Source: Tsukamurella asaccharolytica
GTDB lineage: Bacteria; Actinomycetota; Actinomycetes; Mycobacteriales; Mycobacteriaceae
DNA length: 64,000 bases
NCBI RefSeq assembly: GCF_007858435.1
Contig: NZ_VIGW01000003.1
Location: 372,001-436,000 of the forward strand
Direction of reading: 5' to 3'
Shown: in pieces, positions 53,701-64,000 of the stretch
How the letters are laid out: every line of letters begins with the position of its first letter
Position numbering within the stretch: the first letter of the stretch is position 1
The notes under the pieces: generated by a model
What the model saw: the letters and a program-made list of their open reading frames with translations, nothing else
What the model was told of the DNA's origin: nothing
The model's database searches: none
Position numbers and translations under genes: made by a program

Positions 53701-53934
53701 GCCCGGATGCACCGCGTCGGCACCAGTGCTCGTCGCGGCCGCGACGACCGCGTCACGGTCCAGGTACGCCGCGGCGCCGGAGCCCGGGAGCGCGACGGCG
53801 TCGTCCGCGGCGGCGACGTGCGGAGTGTCTGCGTCGTCCGCCGCGTACACAGCCACCGTCGGAATTCCGAGCTCCCGTGCGGTGCGGATGATCCGCAGCG
53901 CGATCTCACCCCTGTTGGCGATGAGCAGTTTCAC
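50758..53934 (-). CDS. Single-chain acyl-CoA carboxylase: biotin carboxylase, biotin carrier and carboxyltransferase fused
   Basis: 1058 aa from GTG 53934, which overlaps the preceding ligase remnant by a GTGA. Residues 1-460 are biotin carboxylase (ANRGEIALRIIRTARELG; ATP-grasp loop KAVAGGGGRGMRAV at about 155-165; catalytic EVNPRIQVEHTVTE at about 286). A biotinyl domain has its Lys513 in VVLEAMKMEHE. From about 575 to the end is a full two-domain carboxyltransferase (RERHRVTLDEGRPDAV...; RKGYGLGAMAMTGGSF). So all three steps sit on one chain, as in the single-chain long-chain acyl-CoA carboxylases reported for mycobacteria. The acyl substrate is not known. Gene order suggests a link with the island's acyl-CoA chemistry. 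Confidence 0.92.
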   Translation of the reverse strand: MKLLIANRGEIALRIIRTARELGIPTVAVYAADDADTPHVAAADDAVALPGSGAAAYLDRDAVVAAATSTGADAVHPGYGFLAENADFAAECAAADLVFVGPTQDVLRTFGDKAAARAAAVAAGVPVPAATAGGADLATVRAFAVGRPAGVMIKAVAGGGGRGMRAVLPGARFEEELESAYRACVSEAELGFGDGRVFAEELQTGARHIEVQVVGDGADTAAVGDRDCSVQRRNQKVVEIAPAPALDDELRAALHGHAARLCAAAGYRGLATVEFLVRDGGAVFLEVNPRIQVEHTVTEEVTGVDLVAAQLALAEGALLGDLGLPPGVGCRDGVVTGTPAAAHWTAVQTRVNLEVPQRDGTVLPTAGTLTGYTPPAGPGVRVDDYGRPGLTISARYDSLLAKVIVRAATPARAYAKADAALGEFVIDGPGTNLALLRAVLTDPEFRSGHVDTGYLARRIGDLVPETAVAATTPAVELDGDVLTATLTGTVVAVAGVGAAADPGTALVVLEAMKMEHEQTLPVSVTVGDVLVRPGETVTAGTPLLTYAAADGAAAAGDSADALDLDRPRADLDEVRERHRVTLDEGRPDAVAKRRRIGRRTARENIDDLVDAGSFTEYGALLLPAQRARRSEEELIATGAADGLIGGLATIDGAEAMVVSYDYTVLAGTQGWRNHAKTDRLIDVAERRGVPIVLFAEGGGGRPGDTDLDIVAGLDVPTFRSLGALRGRVPLIAVVSGRCFAGNAALAGICDVIIATPDANLGMGGPAMISGGGLGEFPPEAIGPIDVQRRNGVVHVVADDEADAVDRARRYLGYFAGAVDEWTAPDPRATRHVVPENRMRAYDVRAAITAIVDEDSTLELRRDYGVGVITALVRVHGKPYALIANSTRHLGGAIDGEAADKLADFLELAQAHRLPVISLCDTPGFMVGPEAEEQATVRRFSRLFVLGARLTVPLGVIVLRKGYGLGAMAMTGGSFHAPQFTVAWPTGEIGGMGLEGAVRLGFSKELAAAPDEAARAELFDQLLGVAYQRGRALHAATTFELDDVIDPATTRDWISTLTR

Positions 53935-54122
53935 TTCGATTCCCCCTGGTTGAACGCGGCCGCCCGCTCGAACAGCTCTCCCTTGCGCACCTTGCCCGTC
54001 GCCGTCATCGGCAGCGCGTCGACGACCACGAAGTCCGGCACCCTGTAGCCCGCCATTTTCTCCCGCGCCCACGCCGTCAGCTCCGCGACGTCGACGGGGC
54101 CGGCGGTGTGCGTCTCGGTCAT
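53931..54122 (-). pseudogene. C-terminal remnant of an AMP-dependent acyl-CoA synthetase
   Basis: A 63-codon ORF starting with an ATG inside the stop region of the TetR-crotonase gene. From residue 13 on (AELTAWAREKMAGYRVPDF and LPMTATGKVRKGELF) it is the last segment of the ANL-superfamily C-terminal domain, including the Lys of TGKVRK that helps adenylation. The other 90 % of a ligase (about 500 aa) is missing, so it is a deletion remnant that has kept an ATGA start and a GTGA end. It may persist because it couples translation of the flanking genes. Confidence 0.8.
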
Positions 54123-55666
54123 GCCGTAGGTGGGTCCGCGAACGTCGGGGCTCGGTCCTCCGAATTCGCCGACACCGCCTCGCTCTGATTGGCGGTCCCG
54201 ATGAGCGACGCGATCGCCGCCTGTTCCTCCGCTGACCCATCCGCGAGCGAGACGCGGCCGGCCAGTTCCGTCAGCACCTTCGACCGGCGCAGGGCGAACG
54301 GGTTCTTCGACGCGATCTCACGAGCGAGCTCGACCGCAGCACCGTGCGGATCGTCGGAGCACCGGGTAGCGAGACCGATCTGCACCGCTTCGGTTCCGTC
54401 GATGATCCGGCCGGTGTAGATCAGCTCTTTCGCGACGTCTCGGCGCACCAGTCCGTCGAGCAACTGCGTGCCGGTCATGTCGGGGACGATGCCCCCCTTC
54501 ACCTCCATCAATGACAGTTCTGTTGAAGGATGGACTATGCGAACGTCCGCTCCGAGTGCAATCCGCAAGCCGCCGCCGAAAGCCACACCATGGACGGCGG
54601 CGACCACCGGAACCGGCAGCGTTGTCCACACGTGCGCCGCCTGCTGCGCAGTCGCGGAAGCCGGACCGATCGGCCCCCGGGCGCTCGGCGCGTGCTGGAA
54701 ACCGTCGCGCATCTGACGCAACCGGTCGAACTCGATCCCGGCGCTGAACGCCCGCCCCTCCCCCGACAACACGACGACACGCACCGACGGATCCGCGGCC
54801 AACCTCTGGCCCGTCGCGATGAGCGCCTCGAACATCGCGTCATCCAAGGCGTTCAACTTTTCCGCCCGCGCGAGCCGCACGTCAGCGACGCCGCCCTCGA
54901 CCGAGCATCGCACCCGCTCCTGGACGGACGAGTGCTGCTCCGGCAACGCGCCGGGCTCGGCTTCCTCCGGCCGGGACGATGGTGCGCCACCCGCCGCACC
55001 ATCGCCGGCGCGCGGCGCCGGATCCACGAATTCCGAAGCCACTCCGAGCAATGCGGCGGCCGCCATGCGCACCTTCTCCGCGTCGGGTTCCTCGCCGGTG
55101 ATCACCGGCGAGTACACGAACGCCTCCGCGGTCCGTAGGAGTAGGTAGGCGAGGTCGTGGACCGGGAGTTCCGGCCGGAACCGCCCCGCCTCGATCTCCG
55201 CGTCGACGAGCGACACGATCCAGTCGAGGATCCGCCCGTGCACACCGCCGGCGCGCGTCGTCATCACGCGCATCGCACGCTGGGGTTCCGACCGGACGAA
55301 GGGCACGAACGCCTTGCCGCGGTTGGCCGCGGCGGCGAAATCGCCCATCACGTTGGCGATGCGCACCGCGCCGGTTCCCTTCGCCCGCTGCGCGCACCTG
55401 TCGAGGGTGGGTTCTGTGATGGACCAGATCACTTCGCCGAGGATCCGGTCGCGCCCCCCGAACCACCGGAACAGCGTGTTGCGGTTCACCCCCGCGTGCT
55501 CGGCGAGCTCGTTCATCTCCACTCGTTCGTGCCGCAGGAAGGTCTCCCGCGCGCGGGCGATGATCGCCTCGCGCTGCCCGTCGGAGACCGGTCGCGCCCC
55601 ATTCACTCGAGACTGAGTTCGACCGACCTCGCCGCCACCTCGCATCATGACAGAAGGATGACACAT
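54119..55666 (-). CDS. TetR-family regulator fused to a crotonase-fold (enoyl-CoA hydratase/isomerase) domain
   Basis: One open frame of 515 codons. Residues 30-75 form a TetR helix-turn-helix (AIIARARETFLRH, MNELAEHAGVNRNTLFRWFG); 80-213 are a QsdR-type ligand domain; 214-250 a Pro/Gly/Glu linker; 251-500 a crotonase (oxyanion-hole segments SGEGRAFSAG and AAVHGVAFGGGLRIA). In the second helix region the acids Glu389 and an Asp eight residues on (MEVKGGIVPD) keep the spacing of dienoyl-CoA isomerases, while the Glu144 position of hydratase is not acidic. There is no stop between halves. An internal GTG (54913) with AGGAG at only 3 bp might also start a free 264-aa crotonase. The gene overlaps the ligase remnant by ATGA and diverges from the acyl-CoA ligase at 55863. 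Confidence 0.86.
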   Translation of the reverse strand: MCHPSVMMRGGGEVGRTQSRVNGARPVSDGQREAIIARARETFLRHERVEMNELAEHAGVNRNTLFRWFGGRDRILGEVIWSITEPTLDRCAQRAKGTGAVRIANVMGDFAAAANRGKAFVPFVRSEPQRAMRVMTTRAGGVHGRILDWIVSLVDAEIEAGRFRPELPVHDLAYLLLRTAEAFVYSPVITGEEPDAEKVRMAAAALLGVASEFVDPAPRAGDGAAGGAPSSRPEEAEPGALPEQHSSVQERVRCSVEGGVADVRLARAEKLNALDDAMFEALIATGQRLAADPSVRVVVLSGEGRAFSAGIEFDRLRQMRDGFQHAPSARGPIGPASATAQQAAHVWTTLPVPVVAAVHGVAFGGGLRIALGADVRIVHPSTELSLMEVKGGIVPDMTGTQLLDGLVRRDVAKELIYTGRIIDGTEAVQIGLATRCSDDPHGAAVELAREIASKNPFALRRSKVLTELAGRVSLADGSAEEQAAIASLIGTANQSEAVSANSEDRAPTFADPPTA

Positions 55667-55862
55667 TTGATCGGTTCAGCGGGGGGGAACTCCGCCCCGG
55701 TGCCGTCGACAATCTCGCGCAGGCCACCAGGTCCTATTTGCATCATCTTATTCAAATGACACACACGCCATCCGAATCTGGTGGAGACTGCTCGACACGG
55801 GGCACTCGGCCACCGAGATCGGCCCGAGCGCACCTCAGCGTTCCCCGTATTGGAGGCCACAC
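55667..55862. promoter_or_regulatory. Divergent control region between TetR-crotonase and acyl-CoA ligase
   Basis: 196 bp, AT-rich at the regulator end. Repeats that might be TetR-type sites: GATGACACATTTGA at 55657-55670 and TTCAAATGACACACAC at 55751-55766 share the core ATGACACA/CAAATG arrangement; GCATCAT also occurs twice (55642 and 55740). No clean dyad is visible, so operators are only suspected. GGAGG at 55852 is the SD of the ligase. Confidence 0.45.
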
Positions 55863-57518
55863 ATGATCACGTCGACCATGCAGAACGGTGATCTCACCAT
55901 CACGAGGCTCGTGGAGCACAGCCGGAGGGCCTTCCCCGAGGCGACCGTCGCGACCTGGACCGGAAACGAACTGCGCACCAACACCTTCGCCGAGATCGGA
56001 GACATCGCGGCCCGGCTGGCACACGCGCTCGCCGCACTCGGGGTCCGGCGCGGGGATCGCGTGGCGACCTTCATGTGGAACAACAACGAGCACCAGGCGA
56101 TCTACGCAGCCGTGCCCGCCATGGGCGCAGTCCTGCACACCCTCAATCTCCGCCTGTCCGCCGAACAGGCGGTGTTCATCATCGACCACGCCGACGACAA
56201 GGTGATCTTCGTCGACGCTTCGGTCGCGCCGCAGTTGGCGGAGTACGTCGCTCAGACCCCCGGCGTCGAGCACGTCGTCGTGGTCAACGGCCCGGTCGAG
56301 ACGTTCGGCCCCGCGGGCCGGGTTCAGGTCCACGCGTTCGACGACCTCATCGCCGGCCGTCCCACCGTCTTCGACTGGCCGTCCATCGACGAGAGCGACC
56401 CGGCGGTCATGTGTTACACCTCCGGAACCACGGGCGACCCGAAGGGCGTGGTCTACAGCCACCGGAGCATCTACCTGCACTCCCTGGTCGGCACGTCCAC
56501 GATCGGCTTCGGGCTGTCCAATCACAACCGCGTTCTGGTGATCGTGCCGATGTTCCACGTGATGAGCTGGGGACTCCCCTACACCGCGATGATCTGCGGC
56601 GCGAGCCTCGTGATGCCCGACCGCTTCCTCCAGGCCGAACCTCTCCTCGCCATCATGGCCGTAGCGGCCCCCACGCATTCCGTTGCGGTCCCGACGATCT
56701 GGCAGAGCGTGGCCGCACGCCTGGACGTCGCCCCGCAGGACATCTCGCACCTGAAGGAGGTCGTGGTGGGCGGCGCCGCGCTGCCGCCCGCGATGATCAA
56801 GCGCTTCGACGGGTTCGGCGTCCGGCTCACCCACGGCTGGGGCATGACCGAGACCTCCCCGCTCGGCACGATCGCCCGGCCACCGGCCGGCTGCGTCGAC
56901 GTGGACGCGACCTTCGCGTACCGCGTCACCCAGGGCCGCTTCCCGGCGCCCGTCGAAGCGAGGATCGTCGACGGCAACGGCGAGCCGCTCCCGCACGACG
57001 GCACCTCGAGCGGTGAACTGCAGGTGCGTGGCCCGTGGATCACCGGGGCGTACTACTCGCCCGAGGGGAACGTGGCGGCACCGTCGAAGTTCGACGAGGG
57101 GTGGCTGCGAACCGGCGACGTTTCGGTCATCAGCCCCGAGGGCTACATGACGATCGTCGACCGCACCAAGGACCTGATCAAGACCGGCGGCGAGTGGATC
57201 TCCTCCGTCGAGCTGGAGAACACGGTGATGAGCAATCCCACAGTCGTGGAAGCTGTGGCCATCGGGGTGCCCGATGCGAAGTGGGACGAGCGTCCGTTCG
57301 TGCTGGCCGTGGTCAAGGATCCCGCGCACGCCGACGTCGGTGCGCAGCGCGCGTTCCTCGCCGACCTGATTCCCAAGTGGCAGATCCCTGAACGGTGGGC
57401 GTTCGTCACCGAGGTCCCGAAGACGTCGGTCGGCAAGTTCGACAAGAAGCGCATCCGCGACGAGTACGCGAACGGCGCGTATCCGGTGGCCTACTGCCCC
57501 GACGTCGCCGCGAACTGA
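55863..57518 (+). CDS. Fatty-acyl-CoA ligase (AMP-forming)
   Basis: 551 aa ANL-superfamily enzyme with GGAGG 6 bp before ATG 55863. P-loop-like motif MCYTSGTTGDPKGVVYSH, the A5-type GWGMTETSPLG, A8-type EGYMTIVDRTKDLIKTGG and the catalytic Lys in PKTSVGKFDKK. These fit medium- or long-chain fatty acid ligases (FadD-like) that make an acyl-adenylate and then acyl-CoA. As the first gene of the rightward operon it is likely the activating step for the island's substrate. Probably controlled by the divergent TetR-crotonase protein. Confidence 0.92.
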   Translation: MITSTMQNGDLTITRLVEHSRRAFPEATVATWTGNELRTNTFAEIGDIAARLAHALAALGVRRGDRVATFMWNNNEHQAIYAAVPAMGAVLHTLNLRLSAEQAVFIIDHADDKVIFVDASVAPQLAEYVAQTPGVEHVVVVNGPVETFGPAGRVQVHAFDDLIAGRPTVFDWPSIDESDPAVMCYTSGTTGDPKGVVYSHRSIYLHSLVGTSTIGFGLSNHNRVLVIVPMFHVMSWGLPYTAMICGASLVMPDRFLQAEPLLAIMAVAAPTHSVAVPTIWQSVAARLDVAPQDISHLKEVVVGGAALPPAMIKRFDGFGVRLTHGWGMTETSPLGTIARPPAGCVDVDATFAYRVTQGRFPAPVEARIVDGNGEPLPHDGTSSGELQVRGPWITGAYYSPEGNVAAPSKFDEGWLRTGDVSVISPEGYMTIVDRTKDLIKTGGEWISSVELENTVMSNPTVVEAVAIGVPDAKWDERPFVLAVVKDPAHADVGAQRAFLADLIPKWQIPERWAFVTEVPKTSVGKFDKKRIRDEYANGAYPVAYCPDVAAN

Positions 57519-57573
57519 TCCCACCGCCCGAGCCGATTCTCACCCGAAACCGAAGCGAACGAGGTTCTGCCCC

Positions 57574-58461
57574 ATGCCCACTGCCACCATCATCGGCGCC
57601 GGAGTCATCGGCGTGTCCTTCGCCCGGCTCTTCGCGAACGCCGGCTGGCAAGTCCGTCTGAACGACCCCCGCCCCGATCTTCAGCAGATCGTCGAGCGCG
57701 ATCTCGCGGGCCTACCGGTGACGGGCTTCTCCAACCTCGCCGAGGCGGCCACCGGAGCCGACTTCGTCCAGGAGGCCGGACCGGAACGGGTTCCGCTGAA
57801 GAAGCAGATCTTCGCAACACTCGCCGCCAGCACGCGCGACGACGTGGTGCTCGCCTCTTCCACGTCCTCGCTGCTCCCGTCGTCGTTCAGCGAGGGAAAC
57901 CCCGCCGCGGACCGCATTGTCGTCGCCCACCCGTTCAATCCCCCGGAACTGATCCCACTGGTCGAGATCGTCCCGTCGCCGGCCACGTCGCAGGAGACCG
58001 TGGACCGTACGTACAACGTGTTCCTCGAGCTCGGGAAGCTCCCCATCAAGCTCAAGAAGGAGATCCCCGGTTTCGTTGGCAACCGCCTGCAGCGCGCGCT
58101 CAACGAGCAGGCGTCCTATCTGGTGCAACAGGGTGTGATCGGTCCCGGCGAGCTGGACGAGATGGTCAAGGCGTCGCTCGGCCTCCGCTGGGCGACGATC
58201 GGACCCTTCGAGAGTCGCACCCTGGGCGGCGGCCCGGGTGGAATGCGGCACATCATCGAGCACATCGGGCCGGCGATGACGTTCGATCTCGGCACCCCGG
58301 ACAAGGACGCGATGGGGCCGGTGTGCGACGCCGTCGAGGCCGTGTACGGCACGGGACAGGCGAATTGGGAACGCCTCTCCGAGCGCCGCGATCGGCGCAC
58401 GCGGGCCGTGCTCGACGCGCTTGAGGCCGCGGACGAAAAGACTATCGCAGAGGAGTGCTGA
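57574..58461 (+). CDS. 3-hydroxyacyl-CoA dehydrogenase family protein
   Basis: 295 aa with one NAD-binding domain (ATIIGAGVIGVSFARLFANAG, GxGxxG) and one helical C-terminal domain (IPGFVGNRLQRALNEQA). Catalytic His lies in VVAHPFNPPELIPLVEIV and the Glu follows after PLVE. The single C-terminal domain and the SSTSSLLPSSF stretch resemble the hydroxybutyryl-CoA and L-carnitine dehydrogenase branch. It oxidises a 3-hydroxyacyl-CoA (or a related 3-hydroxy acid). Just 5 bp before the CoA-transferase gene, so they are coupled. Confidence 0.92.
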   Translation: MPTATIIGAGVIGVSFARLFANAGWQVRLNDPRPDLQQIVERDLAGLPVTGFSNLAEAATGADFVQEAGPERVPLKKQIFATLAASTRDDVVLASSTSSLLPSSFSEGNPAADRIVVAHPFNPPELIPLVEIVPSPATSQETVDRTYNVFLELGKLPIKLKKEIPGFVGNRLQRALNEQASYLVQQGVIGPGELDEMVKASLGLRWATIGPFESRTLGGGPGGMRHIIEHIGPAMTFDLGTPDKDAMGPVCDAVEAVYGTGQANWERLSERRDRRTRAVLDALEAADEKTIAEEC

Positions 58462-58465
58462 CACC

Positions 58466-59965
58466 GTGCTGAAGACCAACGAAGCCGCCGCTCGACAACT
58501 CGACGACCGGCTGCGCGCGGCACCCGCGACCGACGACGACTTCGACATTCACGGATATCTCGGCGAGCTCCTCGACACCGTCGGCCTCACCGAGTCGGAC
58601 TGCGGCGGCACCGTCGAGTTCACCGGGCGCGACCCGATCCTCCCCGGCAGCCTGCGGCTGGCCGGCGGCACATCGATCGCCCTCGCGGCCAAGTCCGTCG
58701 CCATCGCCAAGATCTGGCAGCTGCGCGGCGGGCTCGGCCAGGACATCGCGATGGACCTGCGCGTCGCCCCGCGACGCCTGTGTCCATTCTTCGAGAACCG
58801 GTGGGAACTGCTTAACGGATACGCCCCCAAGGATCCCGCTCGCGTCGACGACGCGTTCGCGACGTTCAGCTTCTACGAGACCGCCGACGGCCGGTGGATG
58901 CACCCGATGGGGCCGTACCCGCGGCTGCGCAACGACGCCGCGGCCCTGCTCGAGGTACCCGAGCGCGTCGACCGGGTCGCGGACGCGATCAAGCGCTGGA
59001 ACGCGCTCGACCTGGAGGACGCGGGCGCCGCCGCCGGCGTCATCATGCCGATGTGCCGCACGACCGCGGAGTTCATGGAGACCGAGCAGTACCGGCAGGT
59101 GCTGCGCACCCAGCCACCGGTGGTGGTTGAGAAGATCGGGGACAGCGAGCCCGAGCCCTTCGCGCCCGACCCCCGCACTCCGCTCGACGGGATCCGGGTG
59201 CTCGGTCGCGCGCACATCATCGCAGGCGCCGGGGTGGGACGCGCACTGGCGCTACACGGCGCCGACGTGCTCAACGTCTGGGATCCGAACGAGTTCGAGA
59301 ACCCGATGCTCTACATCACCTCCAACGTCGGGATGCGATCGACGACGCTGGACATCAAGACCCCCGCGGGCGATGCCACGATGAAGGGGCTCCTCCGTGG
59401 CGCGGACGTGTTTATCGCCAACCGACGGCCCGACTACCTGGTACGACGCGGCCTGGACGCCGAGGCCGCGTGCGCCGAGCGCCCCGGACTCATCCACGCC
59501 ACCGTGGACCTCAACGGGCGCACCGGGCCGTGGGCCGACCGCGTCGGCTTCGACCAGACCGCCGGAGCGCTCGCGGGCGTCCTGATCAACGAGGGCGAGA
59601 ACGGCGTTCCGTCGCTGCCCGCGGTGCCCGTGGTCAACGACTACATCACCTCGTGGTTCCTGCAACTCGGCATCCTGCACGCCCTCATGTTGCGCGCGGT
59701 GGAGGGCGGCTCGTACCGCGTCAGCGTGTCGCTGACTAGGACCGCCCTGTGGATGGCCGAGCTCGGGTTCTTCGACAAGTCCTATTCGGCCGAGGTGGCC
59801 GGCCGGGCACCGGGCCACGAGCACCTCGAGCCGGAGACGTTCACGGTGGACACCGCTCTGGGCCGCTATCAGGGGGTCACCGAACAGATCCGGATGTCCC
59901 GAACGCCGGGGCACTACACGAATCCATTGATCCCCCGCGGCTCGCACCCGCCCGCGTGGCGTTAG
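58466..59965 (+). CDS. Family III CoA-transferase with apparently permuted halves
   Basis: 499 aa from GTG 58466. The C-terminal part (about residue 235 on) has the features that normally open CaiB/BaiF proteins: PLDGIRVLGRAHIIAGAGVGR, TLDIKTPAGDATMKGLL, ADVFIANRRPDYLVRRGL and the catalytic Asp in VGFDQTAGALAG. The N-terminal part (1-235) instead resembles the middle and end of the family: LRLAGGTSIALAAKSVAIA, FYETADGRWMHPMG, and a GVIMPMCRTTAEF-like loop. So the order of halves is swapped. It would move CoA between acids. The 4-bp spacing from the dehydrogenase supports a shared operon. Confidence 0.85.
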   Translation: MLKTNEAAARQLDDRLRAAPATDDDFDIHGYLGELLDTVGLTESDCGGTVEFTGRDPILPGSLRLAGGTSIALAAKSVAIAKIWQLRGGLGQDIAMDLRVAPRRLCPFFENRWELLNGYAPKDPARVDDAFATFSFYETADGRWMHPMGPYPRLRNDAAALLEVPERVDRVADAIKRWNALDLEDAGAAAGVIMPMCRTTAEFMETEQYRQVLRTQPPVVVEKIGDSEPEPFAPDPRTPLDGIRVLGRAHIIAGAGVGRALALHGADVLNVWDPNEFENPMLYITSNVGMRSTTLDIKTPAGDATMKGLLRGADVFIANRRPDYLVRRGLDAEAACAERPGLIHATVDLNGRTGPWADRVGFDQTAGALAGVLINEGENGVPSLPAVPVVNDYITSWFLQLGILHALMLRAVEGGSYRVSVSLTRTALWMAELGFFDKSYSAEVAGRAPGHEHLEPETFTVDTALGRYQGVTEQIRMSRTPGHYTNPLIPRGSHPPAWR

Positions 59966-59979
59966 GAAGGACCTCCGCC

Positions 59980-60900
59980 ATGACGTCACTGCTCGCGCTC
60001 CTCCTGCGATCGCGCCGTATCGTCGCCATCGACACGGCGGACGGCTCGGTGACCACCGTGACCGACGCGGCCGGGCCCGCACCGGACGGCATCGTCGTCG
60101 TCGACGGAGTCCTGTACTGGACCACGATGGGTGAACCACGGGTCGATCCCGACATCCCCGGCGAGAAGGGCCGCGACTACTCGGCCAGGAGCGGCGGAGT
60201 GCACCGCTGCTCGATCGACGGCAGCGGCCTCGCCGACGTGCTGCCCGCCGGTTCCATCACCACCGGAAAGCAACTCACCACGGACGGCGCCGGATACCTG
60301 TACTGGAGCGACAGGGAGGGGTGCCGCGTTTCGCGGGCCCGGCTCGACGGCGCCGGGCTCGAGGACGTCGTCGCCTTCGATCGAGTGCCGGGCTGGGAGA
60401 ACGAGTGCGTCGGCGTCGCCGTGGACGCGGAACGCTGGCACGTGTACTGGACGCAGAAGGGCCCGTCGAAAGGTGGACGGGGCCGTATCCTGCGCGTCGG
60501 GCTGCCCGCCCTCGACGGGGCCACCCCGCTCGATCACTCCGGTATCGAGGTCGTCTGGGACGGCCTGCCCGAGCCCATCGACCTCGAGATCCACGGGGAC
60601 CACCTGTACTGGACGGACCGCGGCGATCCCGCGGCCGGGGGTAACACGCTCAACCGGGCCCCGCTAACGGCCGCGGGCGACCGTGGCGCCACCCCGGAGA
60701 TCCTGGCGTCGGGATTCCACGAGGCGATCGGCCTCGCGATCGACGACGAAGCCGGGCTGGCCTACGTGTCCGCCCTGGACGGCGACATCCGCGCGATCGG
60801 TCTCCCCGGTACCACCGGGCGCGACGACCGCGTCCTGGCCCGGCTCGGCGAACCCGTCACCGGCCTCGCACTGTGGCGCTCCCCCGAGAGCGCGTCCTGA
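59980..60900 (+). CDS. SMP-30/gluconolactonase-like beta-propeller protein (YWTD repeats)
   Basis: 306 aa from ATG 59980. At least four blades carry the YWTD-type signature: LYWTTMGEP, LYWSDREG, VYWTQKG and LYWTDRGDP, spaced by about 50 residues, so it should fold as a six-bladed propeller. No signal peptide, so cytosolic. Such proteins include lactonases and metal-dependent hydrolases, yet without the Glu/Asn/Asp metal ligands being evident I cannot say that this one is a lactonase. Operon position (14 bp from the CoA-transferase, 67 bp before the transporter) suggests a hydrolytic step in substrate use. Confidence 0.78.
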   Translation: MTSLLALLLRSRRIVAIDTADGSVTTVTDAAGPAPDGIVVVDGVLYWTTMGEPRVDPDIPGEKGRDYSARSGGVHRCSIDGSGLADVLPAGSITTGKQLTTDGAGYLYWSDREGCRVSRARLDGAGLEDVVAFDRVPGWENECVGVAVDAERWHVYWTQKGPSKGGRGRILRVGLPALDGATPLDHSGIEVVWDGLPEPIDLEIHGDHLYWTDRGDPAAGGNTLNRAPLTAAGDRGATPEILASGFHEAIGLAIDDEAGLAYVSALDGDIRAIGLPGTTGRDDRVLARLGEPVTGLALWRSPESAS

Positions 60901-60967
60901 TCCGACATCCGACCGGACGGAGTTCTCCGGTCGCCCGCCCGAGTGGCACTCCCGAAGGAGAATCTTC

Positions 60968-62275
60968 GTGTCCACGACCGAGACGAACAAGTCCCCCATC
61001 ATCAAGCCCGGCAGCGAATCAAGGAGGGCCGCCTGGGGATTCACCGGCCTCGTCGTCTGCCTCTACGTCATCAACTGGAGCGACAAGGCCGTCCTCGGTC
61101 TCGTCGCCCCGTACCTGACCGACGAGGGCATCATCACCACGACCCAGCTCGGGTTGATCGGCAGCGCCTTTTACGTCCCGTTCCTGCTCGGCAACTGGTG
61201 TGCCGGGCTCATCAACCGGTCCATGGCGCTCCGCTGGTCCCTCGCCGCGCTGGCGATCAGTTGGTCGTTCGTGATGCTGCCCATCGTGCTATCGGCGACG
61301 TTCGTCGTGCTGCTCGTGACGAGGATGCTCCTCGGGCTGCTGGAGGGACCGTCCGCACCACTGGTGCACACCGCCATCTACTCCTGGCACCCGATGGAGA
61401 AGCGCGGCCTCCCGTCCGCCGTCGTGACGATGTCCGCATCCGTCGCCAAGCTATTCATCGCGCCCGCCCTCGCCCTCATGATCGGGGCCTTCGGATGGCG
61501 TTCGGCGTTCATCACCCTCGCCGTGGCGGGCCTGGTCTGGGTGCTCGTCTGGCTGCCGACGTGGAAGCTGGGGCCGTACGGCGGCGAGGCGAAGAAGACC
61601 GCCATCACGGTCGTCGACGACGAGCCCACCGTACCCTGGATCAAGGTCCTCACCTCGGGGACGTTCATCGGCGCGTGGCTGGCCAGCATGCCGATCTACG
61701 CCGTCGTCGCGTCCGTGCTGACCTTCCTCCCCTCGTACTTCAACCAAGCGCTGGGCTTCTCGAAGGTCGAGGCCGGAACGATGTTCGGTTTGCCTTCGGT
61801 GGCGAGCATCATCACCCTGGTCGGGATGACGATGTTCTCGGACCGCCTGGTGCAGCGAGGGTCCAGCACGCGGCTGCTGCGCATCATCGTTCCGACCCTG
61901 GGCCTGGTCTTGTGCGCCGTCGCGCTGCTGACGCTGCCCTACATCGACCAGCGGTACCTCGCGGTGGCCTGGGTGTCGATCGGATACGGGCTGGGCGTGA
62001 CCGTGCTGCCGCTGTTCAACGCCGCGCTGTCGGACATCGTGCCCCCGCGTCAGGTCGCCGCCATGCTCGGAATCTTCCTGGGGCTACAGTCCATCGGCGG
62101 CATGTACGGCCCCTACCTTGCCGGGCGGATCGTCGAATCGGCCTCCAGCAAGGTCGCTGGCTACCCTCTCGCGTTCCAGGCGTTCGGCGCGATGTGCCTG
62201 GTCGGGGCACTGATCGCACTGGCCATCGCCAACCCGAAGCGCGATAAGGCCCGCCTGCGCGGAATCACGGACTGA
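60968..62275 (+). CDS. MFS transporter, organic-acid type
   Basis: 435 aa from GTG 60968 with AAGGAG 7 bp ahead. Twelve helices; the loop 2-3 region and RMLLGLLEGPSAPLVH in helix 4 fit the anion:cation symporter-like branch of the major facilitator superfamily, which takes up carboxylates. The cytosolic loop between helices 6 and 7 is WKLGPYGGEAKKTAITVVDDE. It is the last intact gene of the rightward operon and most likely imports the acid that the ligase activates. Confidence 0.88.
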   Translation: MSTTETNKSPIIKPGSESRRAAWGFTGLVVCLYVINWSDKAVLGLVAPYLTDEGIITTTQLGLIGSAFYVPFLLGNWCAGLINRSMALRWSLAALAISWSFVMLPIVLSATFVVLLVTRMLLGLLEGPSAPLVHTAIYSWHPMEKRGLPSAVVTMSASVAKLFIAPALALMIGAFGWRSAFITLAVAGLVWVLVWLPTWKLGPYGGEAKKTAITVVDDEPTVPWIKVLTSGTFIGAWLASMPIYAVVASVLTFLPSYFNQALGFSKVEAGTMFGLPSVASIITLVGMTMFSDRLVQRGSSTRLLRIIVPTLGLVLCAVALLTLPYIDQRYLAVAWVSIGYGLGVTVLPLFNAALSDIVPPRQVAAMLGIFLGLQSIGGMYGPYLAGRIVESASSKVAGYPLAFQAFGAMCLVGALIALAIANPKRDKARLRGITD

Positions 62276-62280
62276 CCGAC

Positions 62281-62948
62281 ATGACCACCGATGCACCACG
62301 ACGACCGAACGATGTACCTGTGACGGCGTTCAACACCGACGACGAATCCGCGACGGATCCGGCCCGGCGGGCGCAGATCGAGATCGGCGCCGCATGGCCG
62401 ACGCGTTGGTGGCGCTCAACACGATCGAGCACCTCGCCGGCGAGGTGTTCGTCCCCGCGGAGGGCCCAGCCGGCAATCCCCTGAGCTTCGAGGCCACGCA
62501 CCGCGCGCTCGCCACCAAGGACGGCCGGGCCGTCGCGGCCGTCGCGTACACCTACCACGACGTCCGTCGGCTGCTGCGCGCCGTGGGGCACCCGGACGCG
62601 GACGATCCGGTATGGGACGGCACGGTGCTGGACCGCCCGACCTTCTGCGGTGGGCTCGAGACGGTGCTCGCGCACTCTGCTCGCCTCACCCTCGCAGAGT
62701 GGGAGGAGTTCCTGACGGACAACGACATGCCGTACGGGGTGGTGACCGACATCGCCGAGCTCCCCCACGACCCGTACGTCCGGGAGATGGGGCTGATCAC
62801 CGAGGTGGAGCACCCCTCCGAAGGGCGGATCCGCGTGGTGAGCAACCCGCTCGAGTACTCAGCGACGCCGGTCTATATCCGCCGCCACGCAGAACTCCCG
62901 GGACAAAGCACCGACGAGGTGTTCGGCCAGTTGCCGGACCGGAGCTAA
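62281..62948 (+). pseudogene. CoA-transferase remnant, deleted and frameshifted
   Basis: ATG 62281 starts a frame whose residues RAQIEIGA resemble the strand just before the ALDALVAL-type helix of CaiB/BaiF enzymes. The rest of that helix (AMADALVALNTIEHLAGE) and the entire C-terminal half, with GPAGNPLSFEATHRA, DGRAVAAVAYT and DMPYGVVTDIAEL, continue in another frame to 62948. The N-terminal 150 or so residues with the catalytic Asp are absent. So it is a broken second CoA-transferase, with a large deletion and a one-base shift near 62,390. Confidence 0.8.
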
Positions 62949-63065
62949 GCGGATCCTCAATGCGCGCGGGCTCGCGACACCACGCTGGCCCGTCGAGTGG
63001 ACGGAACTGGACCGAGACCCGGCTCCACAATCACGAGACGGAGGTGCAGCGCTCCGGCATCGCCC

Positions 63066-63200
63066 GTGCTGCCGTTCGAGCAGCAGGGCATCTTCTTCCT
63101 GCTGTTCGCCCCCACTCCAGGGACCGAGAGCCGCCCGATCCGCTTGGTGGACAGCATCGTCGAGGTCAACGAGTTCTTCCTCACCGGCGTGGTGGTGTAA
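63066..63200 (+). pseudogene. Acyl-CoA dehydrogenase fragment
   Basis: About 45 codons match the middle beta-domain of acyl-CoA dehydrogenases: QQGIFFLLFAPTPGTESRPI and RLVDSIVEVNEFFLTGVVV correspond to the HRGISxLLV...RPIR...EFNEVFFxDVRVP block of the family. The frame ends in TAA just where VP should follow. Nothing before 63066 reads as the N-terminal helical domain, and the C-terminal flavin domain is missing. A relic of a deleted gene. Confidence 0.65.
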
Positions 63201-63207
63201 CTGCCAG

Positions 63208-64000
63208 TCACCGCATCGTCGGAGAGGGAAAGCCCAATCCCGCGACGTCGCAGCCGGCTCGCTTCGTCGTGCGGTGGGCGCGCCAGCTGCCGGTCCACTG
63301 CGGCGGGCGCTTCTGCGCGAACGCCAGGGTACCCTCGGCGGCGTCGTCGGTCGCGCGGATCGCGACGGACTCCGCGCTGCTGCGCTCCCTCGCGTCCGCC
63401 TCCGAGGAGTAGGCGCCGTCGGCGATCGACCGCGCGAGCCGCTTCGTGGCCCGGATAGCGAGCGGGGCGTTGGCCGCGATCTCCCTCGCCAGCTCCCGGG
63501 CCGCGGCCAGAACGGCGCCCGCGCCGACGACCCGGTTCACCAGGTCGAGTTCGAGCGCGCGCCGCGCGTCGATCTTCCGCCCCGTGAACAGGAGCTCGTG
63601 CGCCACCTTCGGGGGCAGGCTGTACCGAGCCGAATCGCTCCGCCGCCCGCGGCGATGATTCCGCGGCTGACCTCGGGAAGCCCGAACACCGCCGACTCGG
63701 CGGCGACAGCCAGATCGCAGGCGAGGACCAGTTCCGTGCCACCGCCGAGCGCGAACCCGTTCACCGCGGCGATCACGGGCACGGGCACCGCGTTGCGAAC
63801 GAACCCGCCGAAACCCCACTCCGGATGCCCCTCGGCGACGATGGACTCGCCCCGCGACAACGCCTTGAGGTCGGCGCCGGCGCAAAAGGCGCGGTCGCCG
63901 GCACCCGTGACGATGACGGCGGCCACGGTGGTGTCCGCATCCGCCTCGGTCAGCGCGGTACCGAGTGCCGTGGCGAGCTCCGCGTTCACCGAGTTCATCG
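63208..64000 (-). pseudogene. Enoyl-CoA hydratase, frameshifted and cut by the window edge
   Basis: The N-terminal portion (from the right edge to about 63,640) reads TGAGDRAFCAGADLKAL, AAVNGFALGGGTELVLACD and FGLPEVSRGIIAAGGG, thus both catalytic Glu residues of crotonases are kept. At GCTCGGTACAGCC near 63,636 the frame breaks; the next frame resumes with LPPKVAHELLFTGRKIDAR and ends in the family tail AFAQKRPPQWTG but reads on for 29 extra residues, so the natural stop has gone as well. One base added at the break repairs the reading. The true start lies beyond position 64000. Confidence 0.82.

Follow-up and report, generated by a model that had tools for sequence, protein, structure and literature searches.

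A TetR-type repressor and a crotonase in one open reading frame within a replacement block of Tsukamurella asaccharolytica

The closest described systems to the locus considered here are the repressor QsdR of Rhodococcus erythropolis and the regulator BzdR. QsdR is reported to repress the qsd operon, which includes a fatty acyl-CoA ligase, and to detect lactones, two palindromes being located in the qsdR–qsdA gap (PMC6262395). BzdR is reported to be built of a DNA-binding domain joined via a linker to a shikimate-kinase-like domain that binds benzoyl-CoA (PMC3602430). The window analyzed here, a stretch of 64,000 nucleotides of Tsukamurella asaccharolytica, contains a gene in which a QsdR-like TetR repressor and a PRK07509 crotonase share one reading frame (Table 1). 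No TetR–crotonase fusion was found in the literature, among the titles and abstract beginnings listed by a search with most subscription journals outside its scope.

All 515 codons are uninterrupted and the TetR half runs into the crotonase half without a stop, as originally predicted. In Pfam, TetR_C_36 is recognized at residues 98–208 (116 bits) and TetR_N at residues 35–79 with 23.5 bits, marginally below the cut-off of 24. Together with the homology to PDB chain 4za6, which we take to be QsdR, these matches bear out the TetR/QsdR type assigned to this half. The other half had been described as a complete crotonase, and it is indeed covered by ECH_1 (Pfam, residues 257–511, 122 bits) and by the PRK07509 crotonase profile of NCBIfam (residues 249–511, 275.9 bits against a cut-off of 249, profile positions 3–263 of 267). 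Most residues of both halves score as coding, in one shared frame. Crotonase residues 316–390 score near or below zero, with no better forward frame, and residues 1–30 lack a coding signature. Because of this, and because an operator-like site overlaps these first 30 codons (covering codons 1–9), translation more likely starts inside the frame, at ATG 55648, ATG 55645 or GTG 55606, the product being probably 495–509 aa long. A clear ribosome site is seen at none of these three codons.

Table 1. Coordinates of the fusion gene, its parts and its surroundings (numbering of the window; strand left empty where none applies).
Feature	Position	Strand	Remarks
Fusion ORF, QsdR-like TetR repressor and PRK07509 crotonase	54119..55666	-	515 codons from first ATG
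TetR part	55013..55606	-	from GTG 55606 to about residue 218, where homology stops
Linker without relatives, about residues 219–240	54947..55012	-	weak coding signature
Crotonase part, residues 241–515	54122..54946	-	internal TTG 54946 and internal GTG 54913
Operator-like palindrome TGCATCATCTTATTCAAATGACACA	55739..55763		between fusion gene and ligase
Second, weaker operator-like site	55641..55665		at first ATG of fusion ORF
Replacement block, 11,145 bp	54105–65249		part inside window 54105..64000
63-aa remnant, C-terminal end of native 577–596 aa acyl-CoA ligase	53931..54122	-	cut by block
Acyl-CoA ligase	55863..57518	+	divergent from fusion gene
3-Hydroxyacyl-CoA dehydrogenase type (carnitine-dehydrogenase-like)	57574..58461	+	
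CoA-transferase family III protein	58466..59965	+	
Beta-propeller-like protein	59980..60900	+	one weak LDL-receptor class B repeat match
MFS transporter	60968..62275	+	
SDR			in block; operator-like site 65231 is 260 bases before its start

Homology to stand-alone TetRs ends at about residue 218, and homology to stand-alone crotonases begins at about residues 241–245. The linker of the original prediction is thus present, although the stretch without relatives measures about 22 residues instead of the 37 proposed. Its coding score is below zero and the GC content at second codon positions rises up to 0.73 at residues 211–240. This weak signature is as expected of non-coding or read-through DNA, but it is not decisive alone, because crotonase residues 316–390 score low too. 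A stop-free stretch of 35 codons is expected by chance in 51–58% of cases at 70–73.5% GC. The loss of the TetR stop is therefore the one event left to explain, and selection does not have to be invoked.

The low coding signature of the linker would also suit one mRNA with two products, a free crotonase being made from TTG 54946 or GTG 54913 in addition to the fused protein or in its place. The TTG aligns with the probable start ATG of a stand-alone relative (L002), where translation of this relative presumably begins. The motif GGAGGA lies 16 bases before the TTG and AGGAG lies 3 bases before the GTG, both spacings being outside the usual 5–9 bases of a ribosome site. The bases of the AGGAG motif moreover encode residues that align with those of relatives, and its occurrence may be due to chance. 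Such a dual product is considered rather unlikely.

The fusion gene lies at the left end of a block whose edges are sharp when the window's genome is compared with five genomes (G005, G003, G006, G014 and G009) from among the 15 others of the genus. Native sequence ends at 54104 (54087 against G009) and resumes at 65250–65268 in the four genomes whose fetched stretch reaches there. The block replaces 9.6 kb of native catabolic genes. In G005, this stretch includes two acyl-CoA-dehydrogenase-type genes (one in full, the other for the most part), a phosphotriesterase-like gene, a ligase, a hydrolase, an MFS-type transporter and another TetR, together with the greater part of a 596-aa ligase located directly before a carboxylase. 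Pfam was used to check the TetR and the 596-aa ligase, and the other names come from reading the sequence. Only the last 63 codons of the native ligase were found in the window's genome. This remnant is still an open frame and overlaps the stop of the fusion gene (ATGA). The block itself contains the fusion gene, the ligase operon (with the dehydrogenase, CoA-transferase, propeller-like and MFS genes), two broken genes and the SDR. One of the broken genes (62394–62948, plus strand) corresponds to the C-terminal part of a family III CoA-transferase and shares 59% identity with the end of a 377-aa member of this family in locus L142. The other (63208–64073, minus strand, extending past the window end) is a second crotonase split by a frameshift over two frames, both pieces being matched by one 247-aa gene in locus L145; it is either a genuine pseudogene or the result of a mistake in the draft sequence.

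The presence of these two broken genes, a draft genome of 81 contigs and the occurrence of the fusion in one genome could mean that two genes are naturally separate here, the joined frame being functionless as such and resulting from a sequencing or assembly error or from decay of the locus. Against this, both halves keep one frame, and the TetR half and the operator-like sites look maintained. Moreover, no stop is present within the linker in any forward frame, the first one being near residue 261, so that a single missed base there would not alone bring back a regular TetR terminus. On this basis, a simple indel error in the linker was rejected, and an error or decay in the wider sense appears unlikely.

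Full-length searches in overlapping sets of 101, 397, 396 and 316 genomes listed no match covering both halves in another genome. Few candidates were scored per genome in these searches, the result for the 101 genomes concerns the stronger matches listed only, and the three larger searches were run at E 1e-70, a threshold that would overlook a fusion whose halves are only distantly related. A further 150 fetched loci outside the block were compared, some being repeats of the same place and eight lying elsewhere in the window's own genome. A TetR relative occurs in 39 of them and a crotonase relative in 60, and no locus contains the two together (E up to 1e-6). Matches were obtained for 987 of 72,556 plasmid records, none covering 80% of the query. 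Hidden fusions around other crotonases were also looked for, and the six longest upstream extensions of 41 loci hold only ECH domains in Pfam (L032, tied with the sixth, was left out). A database search for the same two-domain layout, the check suggested with the original prediction, thus returned no second example among the matches listed. The hypothesis of a widespread architecture was rejected, the fusion having been seen in only one genome in the genome and plasmid searches. Known from one genome only, it may be a recent accident; the join is a private and probably recent variant, in which an enzyme of a known type was added to a repressor of a known type.

Among 300 other genomes of the family, 22 contain a relative of the TetR half (E up to 1e-30), with no crotonase relative in the fetched flanks. 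At eight loci, from Gordonia and a genus grouping with it (g9), a stand-alone TetR faces a ligase 67–73% identical to that of the block. At locus L147, the TetR is followed by an SDR 73% identical to the block's. The TetR half departs from its relatives at 3 of 36 conserved columns, the range within the 27 relatives themselves being 0–7 (at least 40% identity, minimum length, no stop; 34 before removal of duplicates). In phylogenetic trees, it groups with three Tsukamurella TetRs (support 100/99), and the block's ligase, on a long branch, clusters with those of Tsukamurella (96/91, midpoint root). A plain transfer of the block from Gordonia was rejected on these grounds.

The ligase diverges from the fusion gene, and the gap between them had been designated as the natural place for an operator. 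The divergence is confirmed, and the gap contains an operator-like site. The palindrome TGCAYCAT-N9-ATGRTGCA is found in the TetR–ligase gap of the eight Gordonia-type loci, the copy in L015 being degenerate. A matrix was derived from these eight sites of the gap alignment, with the window excluded, L015 included, and L147 left out since it comes from the same genome as L048. Its best place in the window is the palindrome at 55739, which scores 27.3, departs by two from the consensus and has the same location as in the Gordonia-type loci. In 100 simulated islands, the best score was 16.6 and the 95th percentile 11.7. Another high score (28.1) is obtained at 65231–65255, where the block ends on its right side; this site precedes the SDR start by 260 bases. 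The site at 55641 scores 13.7, above the 95th percentile of the simulated islands. A weak operator-like site at 62292–62316, in the gap after the MFS gene, scores 11.4, which is below this percentile and at chance level.

The window contains four matches to the pattern at up to three mismatches versus 0.20 expected, and only those at 55739 and 55641 also stand out by matrix. Over the whole genome, again at up to three mismatches, the plain pattern occurs at 22 places versus 30 for the reversed control; the loose pattern being no commoner than the control, only the strongest sites carry weight. One strong site is located away from the block (G000:C81:87119, in L149; matrix score 24.1, one mismatch), flanked by a transporter-like gene and a phenylalanyl-tRNA synthetase subunit-like gene, both named by reading; the gene at this site is unrelated-looking. 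None of the native ligase copies in the 15 other Tsukamurella genomes has a good operator site, the best score being 10.3. Ten further TetR loci were scanned, and sites were found only in L031 (30.2), L147 (36.4, in a genome shared with a training locus of the matrix) and L055 (19.7); the other seven, mostly with short flanks, score at most 11.6. The L031 site lies at the front of a gene run of Tsukamurella sp. 1534 (L031:2360–6567), in which the same TetR type ends a same-strand run that includes a gene resembling class III PHA synthases and an SDR with 79% identity to that of the block. This arrangement gives a hint that this group of repressors controls polyester or acyl storage genes. As regards the fusion, there is a good case, built on sequence comparison, for the TetR half functioning as a repressor, with putative DNA binding. 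Since the Gordonia-type repressors keep operator and ligase without a crotonase in the fetched flanks, the comparison suggests that the crotonase would not be needed for control of the ligase.

The closest relatives of the crotonase half, 53–65% identical, come from other families of the order and from two genomes of this family. Its conservation was assessed against 23 relatives (at least 45% identity, minimum length, no stop; 24 before removal of duplicates). It differs at 8 of the 95 columns conserved at 90% or more, six of which are invariant in all 23 relatives, the changes being C308S, L311I, D312E, I355V, Q368R and W391G. When single relatives are left out and treated in the same way, 0–15 columns differ, so the count for the crotonase half is not extreme. 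Five of the six changed invariant positions lie in what we take to be the two oxyanion-hole motifs and the acid motif. Such a clustering within active-site motifs is suggestive: the place of the changes, not their number, would be notable.

Glu388 and Asp396 are retained, and all 23 relatives have them as well. The spacing of the active-site acids is thus as described in the original prediction but, being common to the family, it carries no information on sensing. Arg368 occupies the position of the first glutamate of the hydratase AUH (1hzd), the second one being Glu388; if the two AUH positions are catalytic, as we assume, the pair of glutamates of a two-glutamate enoyl-CoA hydratase is incomplete. 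With respect to the Asp/Glu/Asp set presumed to operate in dienoyl-CoA isomerases, Glu388 and Asp396 are present and the third position is Arg368. By profile score and full-length domain, this half belongs to PRK07509; it departs from the invariant residues, a requirement which is our own and not that of the curators. The loss of six invariant residues suggests that this half, instead of being carried as a simple functional enzyme, may be altered or inactive.

These changes bear on the function first proposed for the fusion, namely a self-limiting sensor, in which the crotonase half would bind or consume the acyl-CoA that controls the repressor half. The fusion gene is indeed adjacent to an acyl-CoA ligase, and the altered invariant active-site positions would fit a shift from catalysis to binding, as reported for the shikimate-kinase-like domain of BzdR (PMC3602430). 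Nevertheless, coupling between the halves is not evident, the linker is read-through-like, the fusion occurs in one genome only, and TetR_C_36 already supplies a ligand domain. The Gordonia-type repressors, moreover, face the same ligase with no crotonase in the fetched flanks. The proposal is thus not sustained by the comparison, and it appears quite improbable. Still less probable is a regulator in the making, in which a TetR autorepressor would have captured an acyl-CoA-binding crotonase as a second CoA-thioester input to the ligase operon, its pocket shifting from catalysis to binding through Q368R, W391G and D312E.

The reading that we favor, to which we give about an even chance, is a lineage-private fusion carried by the replacement block, made of an autorepressor and a tethered passenger enzyme, not a second sensor. 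The TetR half would bind the palindrome at 55739, and probably also the sites at 55641 and 65231, thereby repressing its own gene, the divergent ligase operon and the SDR of the block. Repression would be released by a small ligand, probably an acyl compound or an acyl-CoA of that pathway. We infer that a crotonase gene arrived just downstream of the TetR gene, and that the TetR stop was then lost. The crotonase would ride on the repressor through a flexible linker, being made and autoregulated together with it, and would be mainly a tethered passenger enzyme. TetR proteins are dimers and crotonases are trimers or hexamers; given the linker, a single assembly might perhaps accommodate both.

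Should the fused protein be made, it would represent an evolutionarily young, natural union of a metabolic enzyme with a ligand-responsive repressor, in which the free relatives of each half, an operator and a ligase partner can all be named. The evolution of an enzyme into a part of a regulator would then be testable by comparing fused and split forms. If the join is an accident, it illustrates ordinary read-through between adjacent genes in a GC-rich genome.

Compared with known systems, the TetR half resembles QsdR most closely, residues 29–210 being homologous to 4za6 (E 7e-18). The latter is a chain of 192 aa that stands alone, with no enzyme attached, whereas the fusion carries a crotonase. 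For the crotonase half, the best match among solved structures is PDB 4og1, with nearly the whole half aligned (E 1e-65). In contrast to the PRK07509 relatives examined, which are not joined to a TetR, the copy in the fusion is so joined and is changed at six invariant positions. The general plan, with a DNA-binding part, a linker and an enzyme-derived domain in a CoA-thioester pathway, resembles that reported for BzdR (PMC3602430). The helix-turn-helix of BzdR is of the XRE type and that of the fusion of the TetR type. Furthermore, the enzyme-like domain of BzdR is reported to bind the inducer (PMC3602430), whereas in the fusion the TetR keeps a ligand domain of its own.
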